A DNA stretch of 29,426 bases from a virus. The stretch lies in the IMG/VR virus record IMGVR_UViG_3300025759_000472, positions 1 through 29,426 of that record. The stretch is one strand, 5' to 3'. Below the pieces are notes generated by a model, which was given only the letters and a program-made list of their open reading frames with translations, ran no database searches and was not told the origin of the DNA. Positions 5,360-9,496 of the stretch are shown in pieces (positions within the stretch are counted from its first letter, which is position 1; each line of letters starts with the position of its first letter). A program made the translations under genes and the position numbers.

Positions 5360-5850
5360 GCGAAATAGTTCTAAGCGCCGCAGAGATTATTCATGGCGCA
5401 CAAGCTGGCGTGATGCGTCGAGTGAATAATATCAAAAACAATCGGCATCAAAAATATGGGGCTGATGCCTATGACGCCTGGACGATGGATATAGAGGGCG
5501 CACTTGGTGAGATGGCCCTCGCTAAATATCTCGGCGTATACTGGGAAGGCTATGGAATTAAGGCGGGATCAGACGTATCCGGCGATGATGTTCGCACCAC
5601 TAAGTACAGCAATGGCAGATTGATTATGCACCCGGACGATCACGATGACCGGAGGTATTGGCTCGTCACGGGTCAGAGTGGAGCCTACAATATACGCGGC
5701 TGGATTATGGGATATGACGGCAAACACTCAGATTACTGGGAAGACCCGCAAGGAGGGAGGGCTGCTTATTTCGTACCCCAATCTCGCTTATACAAAAAGC
5801 CCCCGGCACTAGGCCGAGGGCTGAGTTACAGGGAGGAAACATCCAAGTGA
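5356..5850 (+). CDS. Phage protein with possible restriction-endonuclease-like fold
   Basis: 164 residues, start MSEIVLSAAEIIHGAQAGVM coupled to DUF1064 by ATGA. The middle has an ordered pattern: EGALGEMALAKYLG (about 47-60), GSDVSGDDVRTTKYSNGRLI (about 71-90), then YWLVTG and GWIMGY strands. An acidic helix residue, a DV turn and a charged strand are what PD-(D/E)xK-like phage proteins show, but the Lys is not clearly placed, so the fold is tentative. The last about 17 codons run through a GC-rich hairpin (5798-5822), and the C-terminus is otherwise low in conserved features. Function unknown. Confidence 0.75.
   Translation: MSEIVLSAAEIIHGAQAGVMRRVNNIKNNRHQKYGADAYDAWTMDIEGALGEMALAKYLGVYWEGYGIKAGSDVSGDDVRTTKYSNGRLIMHPDDHDDRRYWLVTGQSGAYNIRGWIMGYDGKHSDYWEDPQGGRAAYFVPQSRLYKKPPALGRGLSYREETSK
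5798..5822. other. GC-rich hairpin inside the 3' end of 5356-5850
   Basis: Nine base pairs with one C-A mismatch around loop ACTAG: AGCCC-C-CGGC against GCCG-A-GGGCT. On the plus transcript there is no U-run; on the minus transcript five T residues follow. It may be a leftward terminator, or a residual bidirectional one now inside a coding frame. Confidence 0.4.
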
Positions 5851-5896
5851 TGTATCGAGTGGGATGCTCGATCCTGGTATTGTTGCATAAAAAAGT

Positions 5897-5925
5897 TTGT
5901 ACGCAACACAAAATTTTGATATAGA
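5897..5925 (+). promoter_or_regulatory. Candidate rightward promoter for replication genes
   Basis: TTGTAC (5897-5902), 17-bp AT-rich spacer, TATAGA (5920-5925) in an extended TATAGAAT. The -35 overlaps TTTGTACG, a weak relative of the early operator, and is flanked by the inverted repeat GTTGC (5882-5886) and GCAAC (5903-5907). It would start an approximately 95-base leader before the replication protein. Confidence 0.55.
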
Positions 5926-5945
5926 ATTTTTGCGGCGAAAAAAGC

Positions 5946-6009
5946 ATCGGCTCGCTACCGATGTCGGCTTCGCACTCTCAGCCCGTCGCCCCCTTTTTTT
6001 TGAGAGTGC
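5946..6009 (+). ncRNA. Structured 5' leader, possible attenuator
   Basis: Three inverted repeats lie between the candidate promoter and the ATG at 6030: ATCGG/CCGAT (5946-5950, 5958-5962), the overlapping CCGA/TCGG (5958-5961, 5964-5967) that excludes the first, and GCACTCTCA/TGAGAGTGC (5972-5980, 6001-6009; 9 bp, 20-base loop ending in a T-run). Mutually exclusive hairpins suggest attenuation or translation control. The ribosome site is the weak GAGAG just after the last stem. No named RNA family recognised. Confidence 0.4.
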
Positions 6010-6029
6010 ATAGATGAGAGAGTGACATC

Positions 6030-6539
6030 ATGACACCAGAGTTCCGTGACAGCGCCGAATACGCTTTGCAGAGATTGGTTCGCCAAGTCATCCGCAAAAA
6101 CAAAAACCTTTCCGCCCACCAGCGAAACATCCTTATCGCAATCTGCAACGATTGGTTCTTTCATAAAAACGGTCCAAAAAAGCACATTCACCCCGGCAGA
6201 AAGCGACTTGCCAAAAAAGCCAACACCACGGTCATAACCGTCGCCAGAGCCTTAAAGCTATTTCGAGAGGCTGGTATTGTCCATGTTGTGGCAAGGCCAA
6301 GAGGCGAGGGCCAGAAGCCAACTCAATATGTTGTTGATGAAGTTGCTATCCTTAAATTCTGTGGCTGCGATATCCCCGAAACAGTGTCAGCGGCAATCAT
6401 AGAATTCCCCCAAAATGATACACCACTTGTCCCGCCAAATGATACACCACTGGCGTATCAAAATGATACACAGTATAAGGGTGTAAACACCCACCGTTGC
6501 CAGAGTGAGGTTATTTGTTTTTCGGAGTATAACCGATGA
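6030..6539 (+). CDS. Winged-helix replication initiator-like protein
   Basis: 169 residues. The N-terminal two-thirds is a winged-helix domain: YALQRLVRQVIRKNKNLSAH, RNILIAICNDWF, then HPGRKRLAKKANTTVITVAR and ALKLFREAGIVHVV (recognition helix and wing). This is the plan of O-type phage replication proteins and related initiators that bind iterons. The C-terminal part (about 127-150) reads as three NDTP-like repeats because the DNA beneath is three 24-bp iterons. It precedes a helicase (ATGA overlap) and, further on, a primase, giving a replication module. The helicase-loader type C-terminus is not evident. A purely transcriptional role is possible. Confidence 0.75.
   Translation: MTPEFRDSAEYALQRLVRQVIRKNKNLSAHQRNILIAICNDWFFHKNGPKKHIHPGRKRLAKKANTTVITVARALKLFREAGIVHVVARPRGEGQKPTQYVVDEVAILKFCGCDIPETVSAAIIEFPQNDTPLVPPNDTPLAYQNDTQYKGVNTHRCQSEVICFSEYNR
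6413..6471 (+). repeat. Three 24-bp iterons, candidate replication origin
   Basis: AAATGATACACCAC at 6413-6426 and 6437-6450, and AAATGATACAC at 6461-6471, exactly 24 bases apart. They lie inside the coding region of the winged-helix protein, as lambda origin iterons lie inside gene O. A palindrome follows at 6479-6492. Origin function is inferred. Confidence 0.65.
6479..6492. repeat. Perfect palindrome beside iterons
   Basis: GGGTGT, AA, ACACCC: a near-uninterrupted 14-base dyad starting 8 bases after the third iteron. It could be a further binding site at the origin or an operator for the initiator. Confidence 0.5.
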
Positions 6540-8005
6540 ACATGATCCGTACCGAGAAGACGCTTCGCCCTTACCAAGAGGATGCGATCAACAAACTCAG
6601 ATCATCTTTTGGCACCGGCAATAAGAAGGTTGTGATGCAAGGCGCAACAGGTTTTGGGAAAACACTTGTAGCAGCAAAGATCATCCAAGGAGCCTTGGCT
6701 AAGGGGAACAGGGTAGCCTTTACCGCACCAGCGATCACTCTCATCGATCAGACCGTTAGCGCATTTGAGGCAGAGGGTATCTACGACATCGGCGTGATGC
6801 AGGCAAACCACCCGCGAACGAACATGATGGCAAAGGTTCAGGTCTGTTCTCTGCGAACACTGGCACGGCGTGATGGCATGCTGCCGCCTAGCCTGATCAT
6901 CGTGGACGAGTGCCACATCCAAGACGAGATGATCCCGAAAATGATGGAGACGTATCCCGATGCATATTTCGTCGGCCTGAGCGCGACACCGTGGGCTAAG
7001 GGCATGGGGCTGCTTTGGGATGATCTGGTGGTGTCGGCTACGATTGGCGATCTGATTAAGCAGGGATACCTGTCAGAGTTTAGAGCGTTTGCTCCTAGCG
7101 TTCCCGATCTAACGGGCGTGAAAAAAATGGCCGGTGATTTCAACGAGAAGCAGTTGGAAGAGGTCATGCGGGATAAGAAGCTGGTCGGCGATGTTGTGCA
7201 GACATGGCTTGAGAAGGGCGAGAATAGGCCAACGCTGTGCTTCGGCGTGAACCGCGCCCATGCGGGTATGCTCAAGGGTGCCTTTGAGGCTCACGGCATT
7301 TCTGCGGCCTACTGTGACGCCTTCACAGACAGGATTGAGATGAAGGGGATTGAGCGGGACTTTCGCAATGGTGATGTCTCCGTGGTTTGCTCAGTACGCA
7401 AGATTACGACCGGCGTTGATTGGCCAGTTGGATGCATCATAGACGCGGCCCCCACGATGAGCGAGATGCTGCACGTTCAGAAGATCGGTCGAGGGCTGCG
7501 GGTAAACCCAGGCACCGAGGATTTGATTATTCTGGATCACGCCAGCAACAGCCTTCGCCTTGGTCTGGTAACGGATATCCACCATAGTGAGTTGGACGCT
7601 ACACCGAAGGGAGAGAGGCAGCAGAAGACGACGAGCGAGAAGCTGCCGAAGCCTTGCAGCAAGTGCGGTGTTCTTCACACGGGCCTGATATGCCCAGCCT
7701 GCGGCCATGAGAAAAAGCCTGTGGCCGGGGTTGATGTCGAGGACGGAGAACTGCGCGAGGTCGGCGGGAAGGAGAAAAAGGATCGTTGGACTAAAGAGGA
7801 TAAGCAGCGGTTCTGGTCGATGGCCTTGCATCTTGATGACAGCAGATCGAAGCACGGGAAGCTGGCGAAGGCGTTGTACAAGTCTCGGTTTGGCGTATGG
7901 CCGAAAGGCATAGAAGACGCCAGAATTGTACCGGATCAGGCTTTTATGAATTACGAAAAGTCCCGGCGGATAGCGTATGCGAAGAGGATGCAAAAAAATA
8001 GTTGA
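6536..8005 (+). CDS. Superfamily 2 DNA helicase with C-terminal zinc finger
   Basis: 489 residues. Motifs in order: LRPYQEDA (about 10-17), Walker A GATGFGKT (36-43), DECH box (124-127), SATP (149-152), TTGVDWP (291-297), motif VI QKIGRGLR (315-322). This is the DEAD/H, type III restriction/UvsW-like helicase arrangement. A C4 zinc finger follows, CSKC (374-377) and CPAC (386-389), then a charged C-terminal region. It presumably unwinds DNA at the phage origin or recombination intermediates, using ATP. It overlaps the initiator stop by ATGA, and its end contains the -35 of the next promoter. Family call is secure, precise role inferred. Confidence 0.9.
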   Translation: MNMIRTEKTLRPYQEDAINKLRSSFGTGNKKVVMQGATGFGKTLVAAKIIQGALAKGNRVAFTAPAITLIDQTVSAFEAEGIYDIGVMQANHPRTNMMAKVQVCSLRTLARRDGMLPPSLIIVDECHIQDEMIPKMMETYPDAYFVGLSATPWAKGMGLLWDDLVVSATIGDLIKQGYLSEFRAFAPSVPDLTGVKKMAGDFNEKQLEEVMRDKKLVGDVVQTWLEKGENRPTLCFGVNRAHAGMLKGAFEAHGISAAYCDAFTDRIEMKGIERDFRNGDVSVVCSVRKITTGVDWPVGCIIDAAPTMSEMLHVQKIGRGLRVNPGTEDLIILDHASNSLRLGLVTDIHHSELDATPKGERQQKTTSEKLPKPCSKCGVLHTGLICPACGHEKKPVAGVDVEDGELREVGGKEKKDRWTKEDKQRFWSMALHLDDSRSKHGKLAKALYKSRFGVWPKGIEDARIVPDQAFMNYEKSRRIAYAKRMQKNS

Positions 8006-8557: not shown

Positions 8558-9496
8558 ATGTTTCACACCAAGACAATCGACGCAGCCAAGGGTAAATGGA
8601 GAGGCATCCTAATGGCCCTTGGTGTGCCTGAGAAGTTCTTAGTGAACCGACACGGTCCTTGCCCCCTTTGTGCTGGTGAGGATCGCTTCCGTTGGGACAA
8701 TAAGATGGGCAGCGGATCGTACATCTGCGGCCAGTGTGGCGCTGGTGATGGTATGGAATTGGCTAAGAAATTTACTGGTGAAGACTTCCTTATCGTCGCC
8801 AATAAGATTGACGCTATCATCGGCAACATAAAACCGGACGCAGACCATCACGTTGACACAGGGATGTCTGACGATGATCGACGGGCAATGCTTCGGGCTG
8901 CATACGCTGACAGCAAGCAAGCCGTGAAAGGTGATTTGGTCGATAGGTATCTGACTAGCCGGGGCTTACATAACGCGACATATCCGAAGGCGCTACGCTT
9001 TGCGCCGAGCCTCAAGGATGGTGGTGGAGGGCTTAAGCCTTGCATGCTGGCGATGGTTGTTGATGCAGAGGGCAAGCCTGTGACCATGCACCGCACGTTC
9101 TTGGCCGAGGATGGCTCTGGCAAGGCAACTATGCCATCTCCCCGTAAGATGATGCCAGGGGCGCTCCCTGATGGCGCTTGTGTACGCTTGACGGATGGCG
9201 ATATACCAAAGCACATTGGGATTGCAGAGGGCATAGAGACAGCTATGGGCGCAACAGCTTATTTCGATATGCCTGTCTGGGCGTGTCTAAGCACAGCCCT
9301 AATGAAGAAATGGACCCCACCAGAGGGCGTTGAAGAGGTAACCATAATGGCCGATAATGATCTGAAGTTTGGCGGGCAAGCTGCCGCATACGAATTAGCG
9401 CATAAGTTGGCTGTGAAGGGTTTTAAGGTTGACGTTCAGGTGCCACCTATGCCTGGGACCGATTGGAATAACTACACCAAACGGAAAGTGGCATGA
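8558..9496 (+). CDS. Zinc-ribbon/Toprim DNA primase
   Basis: 312 residues. N-terminal zinc-binding domain CPLC (about 35-38) with EDRFRWDNK and YICGQCGAGDG (about 55-65), matching the P4-alpha/phage primase zinc ribbon (GPCPLCAGEDRFRW). A central linker (about 100-210) is followed by a Toprim-like domain: HIGIAEGIETAMGATAYF with catalytic-type Glu, then EVTIMADNDLKFGGQAAA with the DxD pair. No helicase domain follows, so unwinding would come from the SF2 protein at 6536-8005 or the host. It makes RNA primers at the phage fork. Its 3' end overlaps the next start by four bases. Confidence 0.9.
   Translation: MFHTKTIDAAKGKWRGILMALGVPEKFLVNRHGPCPLCAGEDRFRWDNKMGSGSYICGQCGAGDGMELAKKFTGEDFLIVANKIDAIIGNIKPDADHHVDTGMSDDDRRAMLRAAYADSKQAVKGDLVDRYLTSRGLHNATYPKALRFAPSLKDGGGGLKPCMLAMVVDAEGKPVTMHRTFLAEDGSGKATMPSPRKMMPGALPDGACVRLTDGDIPKHIGIAEGIETAMGATAYFDMPVWACLSTALMKKWTPPEGVEEVTIMADNDLKFGGQAAAYELAHKLAVKGFKVDVQVPPMPGTDWNNYTKRKVA

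Follow-up and report, generated by a model that had tools for sequence, protein, structure and literature searches.

The locus described here lies in a window of 29,426 nt, i.e. the whole stretch of viral DNA that was analysed, and begins with a winged-helix initiator-like gene on the plus strand (6030–6539; 169 aa). It is followed on the same strand by the gene of an SF2 (ResIII/DEAD) helicase (6536–8005; phrog_16, 1e-80), a conserved neighbour whose start overlaps the initiator gene, and then by a zinc-ribbon/TOPRIM primase gene (8558–9496; phrog_510, 3e-75). The initiator-like protein resembles families of phage replication initiation proteins weakly but consistently: residues 19–104, the N-terminal winged helix-turn-helix (wHTH), match the profile of phrog_8102 'replication initiation protein' with E 5e-6 (PHROG gives no curated cut-off), and the other matches are to phrog_26991 (E 3e-6) and phrog_186 'DnaD-like helicase loader' (E 1e-3). 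The score against HTH_36 (PF13730) is 11.8 bits (E 0.22) and lies below the Pfam gathering score of 25 bits.

The AlphaFold2 model of the protein indicates a wHTH fold in the N-terminal 110 residues, with pLDDT ~90 over most of residues 10–110, and places the predicted recognition helix at residues 68–81 (codons 6231–6272), which include I69-T70-V71-A72-R73. No folded helicase- or loader-binding domain is seen in the model C-terminal of the wHTH. A fold search did not lead to a specific fold family: only generic winged-helix matches were returned, the nearest solved folds being DNA-binding domains of the MarR/CRP type, and the structures of the pSK41 RepA N-terminal domain (4pql, 4pt7) reached Z ~7, not above those domains. 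Ahead of the gene, the intergenic region 5850–6020 is conserved with L006 and holds a CATCGG/CCGATG stem, then GCCCGTCGCC, then a T run; the stem of L006 is CATCGA/TCGATG, i.e. changed on both sides. This element has no Rfam match and is possibly a terminator or attenuator.

The repeat array inside the initiator gene

The 3' part of the initiator gene carries three exact copies of AAATGATACAC on the plus strand (6413–6423, 6437–6447 and 6461–6471), and their spacing of 24 + 24 bp is the regular direct repetition expected of an iteron-type origin. The first two copies are direct half-sites, and the third makes up the right-hand side of GTATCA-AAA-TGATAC (6455–6469), a perfect palindrome in which it is joined to an inverted half unit. 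An earlier, sequence-only reading of the window had overlooked this palindrome; it had reported three units at an exact 24-bp period within a flexible linker. The period is confirmed, and the tail encoded by the iteron region (6402–6536) is predicted to be disordered, in keeping with a linker (pLDDT < 50 for residues 127–140 and 142–169). The same reading had counted GGGTGT-AA-ACACCC (6479–6492) with the iterons. That inverted repeat is present as described, but we place it outside the element: it occurs at chance frequency (inverted repeats with 6-bp arms average 1.0 per 510 bp in the window) and is absent from the nearest relative, L014. A conserved box follows the palindrome GTATCA-AAA-TGATAC (6469–6479, plus strand; CACAGTATAAG in the window, family consensus CACNGTMTWAR), and several columns outside the palindrome hold 0.7–1.9 bits in the anchored comparison of 24 loci.

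The triplet exceeds what chance would give. When the codons of the gene were shuffled 20,000 times, some 11-mer was present in triplicate in 0.00015 of the shuffles; for protein-preserving synonymous resamplings the fraction was 0.00075, and the probability that N, D and T are each written with one codon used three times is 0.0056 under the codon usage of the window. Exact AAATGATACAC is confined to these three positions within the 29,426 nt, and no further copy with up to two mismatches lies within 6 kb; therefore the gene's own promoter is without a site. At the iteron site neither an Rfam family nor a sigma-70-type promoter was found (promoter scan 5800–6700). The A+T content near the array rises in the family to a mean of up to 0.60 at +20 to +40 of the last unit, against ~0.45 around it; a strong AT-rich unwinding element was not seen in the window. 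GC skew is uninformative on the origin, because the genes switch strand near 4.4 kb and the change in skew there follows this switch.

Relatives of the array and the reading frames of its units

Relatives were gathered by IMG/VR scans with the protein, alignments and the neighbouring helicase as queries. The family that was found consists of wHTH genes directly ahead of phrog_16 helicases, the helicase always adjoining, and 24 of its non-redundant members bear arrays: the window, metagenomic phages and one Parvularculaceae contig (L158). When the 24 loci were aligned on the last unit, the array was situated towards the 3' end of the gene and usually comprised 2–3 units 23–26 bp apart, the last of them palindromic with a near-invariant AAA centre. 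The penultimate unit, the counterpart of iteron 2, stands 23–26 bp ahead of the last in 22 of the 24 loci, and a counterpart of iteron 1 stands 47/48 bp ahead in about half. The relative L151/L152, with a 44% identical protein, showed no iterons by the scan used.

Searches by tblastn of named phages (50,697 records) and plasmids (72,556 records) gave only matches of E 0.03–0.3 for the window protein, and at E <= 0.01 there was no match for L017 or L020 in the phages, nor for L014 in the plasmids. Among alphaproteobacterial genomes the family was found only in the Parvularculaceae contig; nine weak order-level matches (1e-4 to 1e-6) proved to be other wHTH proteins, and two loci recovered from genomes by helicase matches (L240, L242) were set aside, being without the wHTH family upstream.

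The relatives make it possible to separate the DNA of the repeat from the peptide that it encodes. One and the same 15-mer, GGGACAAAATGTCCC, stands in frame 2 in L158, in frame 1 in L020, L168 and L179 and in frame 0 in L176, and is translated as GQNVP (L158), DKMSH (L020, L168) or GTKCPT (L176). Counted over all 24 loci, the last unit is in frame 1 at 14, in frame 2 at 6 and in frame 0 at 4. Spacings of 23 bp put units of one and the same gene into different frames in L014, L016, L020 and L022 (two frames in L014), and the window's exact AAATGATAC is read KMI, not NDT, in L023. Since the same 15-mer is read in all three frames across phages, it is the DNA that is constrained and not the peptide, and the comparison of sequences thus supports the notion that the intragenic repeats are maintained for a signal in the DNA and not for a motif in the protein.

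The opposite notion is that an NDTP motif was selected in the tail and that the DNA repeat is a by-product of a recent duplication. Units do share one frame in the window, L014 and L015, giving NDT or NVT, but the other-frame readings in relatives (KMSH, GQNVP, GTKCPT, KLHTT, KMIH) and the predicted disorder of the tail speak against it, and we consider a selected peptide extremely unlikely. The sequence-only reading had proposed that DNA-site function drives the repeat, and had named a peptide kept under drifting DNA as one observation that would contradict this. The relatives present the reverse: the unit is kept while frame and peptide change, and, as described below, changes in the site go along with changes in the recognition helix. 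A repeat in a coding region can in this way be assigned to its DNA, not its peptide, by comparative analysis of sequence alone.

The palindrome itself also behaves as a dyad. At four of its six arm pairs both bases change together, and complementarity is retained in 21–23 of the 24 loci, and none of 2000 shuffles reached the observed pairing.

Recognition helices and iteron arms

In the aligned domains, the recognition helix opens with a stretch in which five residues vary together with the arms of the iterons. ITVAR is found with TGATAC (the window, L014, L021), MTVAR with TGTTAC (L015), K[TA]VSR with TGTCCC (seven loci), RTV[AS][SA] with [TC]TGCAC (four loci) and ATVKR with TGACCC (two loci). 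Between loci, the correlation of arm similarity is r 0.675 with helix similarity and r 0.15 with similarity of the rest of the domain; given the rest of the domain, the partial correlation of helix and arm is 0.67 (permutation p 2e-4). The clearest pair is L015 and L158, 91% identical outside the helix, which combine MTVAR with TGTTAC and KTVSR with TGTCCC, respectively, and differ at all sites. Helix-arm rules were fixed ahead of the last scan, and both new non-redundant loci that they cover (L244, L250) fit, while in L255–L257 the helices are not covered by the rules and the palindromes are new. In a poorly resolved tree of the domain the supported contrasts are all in the expected direction, three independent ones for the K class and two for the R class, numbers too small to allow a sign test.

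Two-sided changes of the arms would suit an RNA stem too, namely a hairpin of the mRNA that controls translation of the overlapping helicase gene. The 15-mer folds with 6 pairs, but the stem is weak (-3.2 kcal/mol), and units 1 and 2 of the window are direct half-sites that are unable to form such hairpins, therefore an RNA hairpin cannot explain the whole array. Additionally, an RNA stem does not predict that the arms change along with the recognition helix of a DNA-binding domain. We regard this explanation as very improbable.

A related pattern was met in named phages. The 15-mer palindrome GTATCAAAATGATAC occurs in at least 119 stretches of IMG/VR, about one third of the occurrences with a second similar site nearby; most of them look like chance. 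The same palindrome is present in initiator genes of Staphylococcus phages, and named phages were searched with the Staphylococcus phage initiator protein, by which 17 loci of a second family were read. These 'O-like' or 'DnaD-like' initiators of Staphylococcus, Bacillus, Hafnia, Pseudomonas, Klebsiella, Pantoea and Erwinia phages resemble the window in having a wHTH followed by palindromic iterons; most of the closer loci have palindromic units at 22/23-bp spacing beyond the wHTH domain, in shifting frames, and the A/T-rich centre and the helix-site relation are likewise shared with the window's family. Unlike the window's protein, they form a separate family of longer proteins, and the next gene, where annotated, is that of a DnaB helicase, a G39P- or DnaC-like loader or a primase-helicase instead of the SF2 helicase.

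Across the two families helix similarity and arm similarity correlate with r 0.63 (p 0.002; p 0.008 without the locus that was chosen by its site), some second-family arms having been assigned by hand once they had been inspected. Hafnia phage yong2 provides the best single case: here KTVSR stands with GGACA-AAA-TGTCC and five of six arm bases are those of seven members of the window's family, and five proteobacterial phages with DT[IV]KR have the common arm TGC[CA]C. This correlation between sequences lends support to a helix-site relation beyond one family and is not a proof of it. The literature searched, which leaves out most subscription journals, contained no account of a residue-level correspondence of helix and site between phage families.

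Type specificity of lambdoid O proteins is known. The observations above suggest a more general scheme, for which we see about even chances: phage wHTH initiators may recognise the palindromic iterons in their own genes by a code that is simple and largely transferable, in which about three variable positions at the helix start (X-T-V-x-x) determine the arms, while the A-rich centre between them is constant. The proposed correspondences are KTVSR with TGTCC, ITVAR with TGATAC, ATVKR with TGACCC, RTVAS with TGCAC and DT[IV]KR with TGC[CA]C. Helix and sites would change together, and related phages would in this way repeatedly gain new replication specificities; as part of the same scheme, the initiator may deliver the SF2 helicase directly and not through a DnaB loader. 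If the helix-site relation is causal, it would become predictable which origins a phage replicon uses, and with this whether co-infecting phages are compatible, and the prediction could be tested by swapping a few residues and a few bases. For the specialist, the interest lies in a residue-to-base correspondence across families that is directly testable.

Probable origin function and known systems

We consider it probable that the array at 6413–6471 represents iterons bound by the 6030–6539 protein and, most likely, the replication origin of the phage. From the array, its dyad symmetry and the helix-site co-variation we strongly infer that the initiator binds the array; by analogy with known replicons, origin firing and helicase recruitment would take place there as well. 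Residues I69-T70-V71-A72-R73 of the recognition helix would read TGATAC in two direct half-sites and one full palindrome, and the bound initiator would recruit or position the adjoining SF2 helicase and TOPRIM primase and so mark the loading place. The protein tail over the array would be an unstructured by-product, its peptide following the DNA because the DNA must be kept. One relative is suggestive with regard to recruitment: in L257 (1333–3291) wHTH and phrog_16 helicase stand in one continuous frame without a stop. This is possibly a natural initiator-helicase fusion, although the helicase may have an internal start, and the continuous frame would fit direct recruitment of the helicase by the initiator.

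The main rival to an origin is an operator, i.e. the wHTH protein would bind the array in order to repress or activate transcription into the helicase-primase genes, or to couple transcription to replication. A TATAA-like conserved box (CACNGTMTWAR) does follow the last palindrome, 60–100 nt ahead of the helicase start, and generic MarR/CRP-type domains are the nearest solved folds. However, the scan of 5800–6700 detected no sigma-70-type promoter, the gene's own promoter is without a site, 2–3 evenly spaced units within initiator genes are typical of origins, and the family matches point to replication proteins. An operator in place of an origin therefore seems unlikely to us, though less so than the other alternatives, and the two roles are not exclusive.

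That initiators may carry their own origin is a well-known principle, established long ago, and the window's family is a new, uncultured family of such initiators with their own iterons and putative origin. The iterons of lambda, each with dyad symmetry, lie inside gene O between the part for the DNA-binding domain and the gene end (PMC7466680), so the initiator gene carries its own iterons as in the window. Unlike lambda O, the window protein is not recognisably an O protein (phrog_678 'O-like' only at E 0.014; with the O family of Pfam, no match at E <= 1) and has no predicted folded C-terminal domain, its neighbour is an SF2 helicase and not a P-type loader, and there is no strong AT-rich block. 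The origin-binding protein of SPP1 likewise binds direct repeats in its own gene 38, at oriL (PMC6316719), but SPP1 uses the loader gp39 and the DnaB-type helicase gp40. The pSK41 RepA_N replicons have an N-terminal winged helix whose binding sites lie midway along its own rep gene, and the origin-encoded protein segment is dispensable; in the initiator of plasmid pPR9 a phage-like pfam13730 HTH has taken the place of both N-terminal domain and origin region (PMC5703833). Both resemble the window in having a winged helix with sites inside its own gene; they differ in being plasmids, with a longer protein and a C-terminal primase-interacting domain, and the window protein has no RepA_N match (PF06970, none at E <= 1).

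Origins of uncultured phages might be sought by a simple rule, i.e. by taking the wHTH gene ahead of a helicase and looking for palindromic units in its 3' part. Within 400 nt ahead of phrog_16 helicases, a direct 9-mer repeat with 14–60 bp spacing is present at 34 of 70 loci against 52 of 375 control windows. Direct repeats are there 3.5 times as frequent as in the controls. Other genes upstream of phrog_16 helicases (L182, L183, L197, L199, L212, L226, L229) also contain repeats, many palindromic, with 21–24 bp spacing, and palindromes ahead of these helicases include GGTGTC-CCACA-GACACC and GGGTCT-AAT-AGACCC.

A few further observations concern the boundary of initiator and helicase genes. 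The stretch CCTAGCCA[AG], read PSQ, is found at the helicase start in L014, L015 and L158 and at the initiator end in L162, L179, L244 and L250. L158 has extra sequence at ~5500–5660, between initiator and helicase start, which is absent from relatives and whose residues resemble part of an HNH-type endonuclease. Finally, two wHTH genes of alphaproteobacterial genomes carry tandem in-gene repeats, AAGGGTGTC in L263 and 24-bp units of the AAAAGGGGTGCAGCAGAGAC type in L266, and are likely another case of intragenic iterons.
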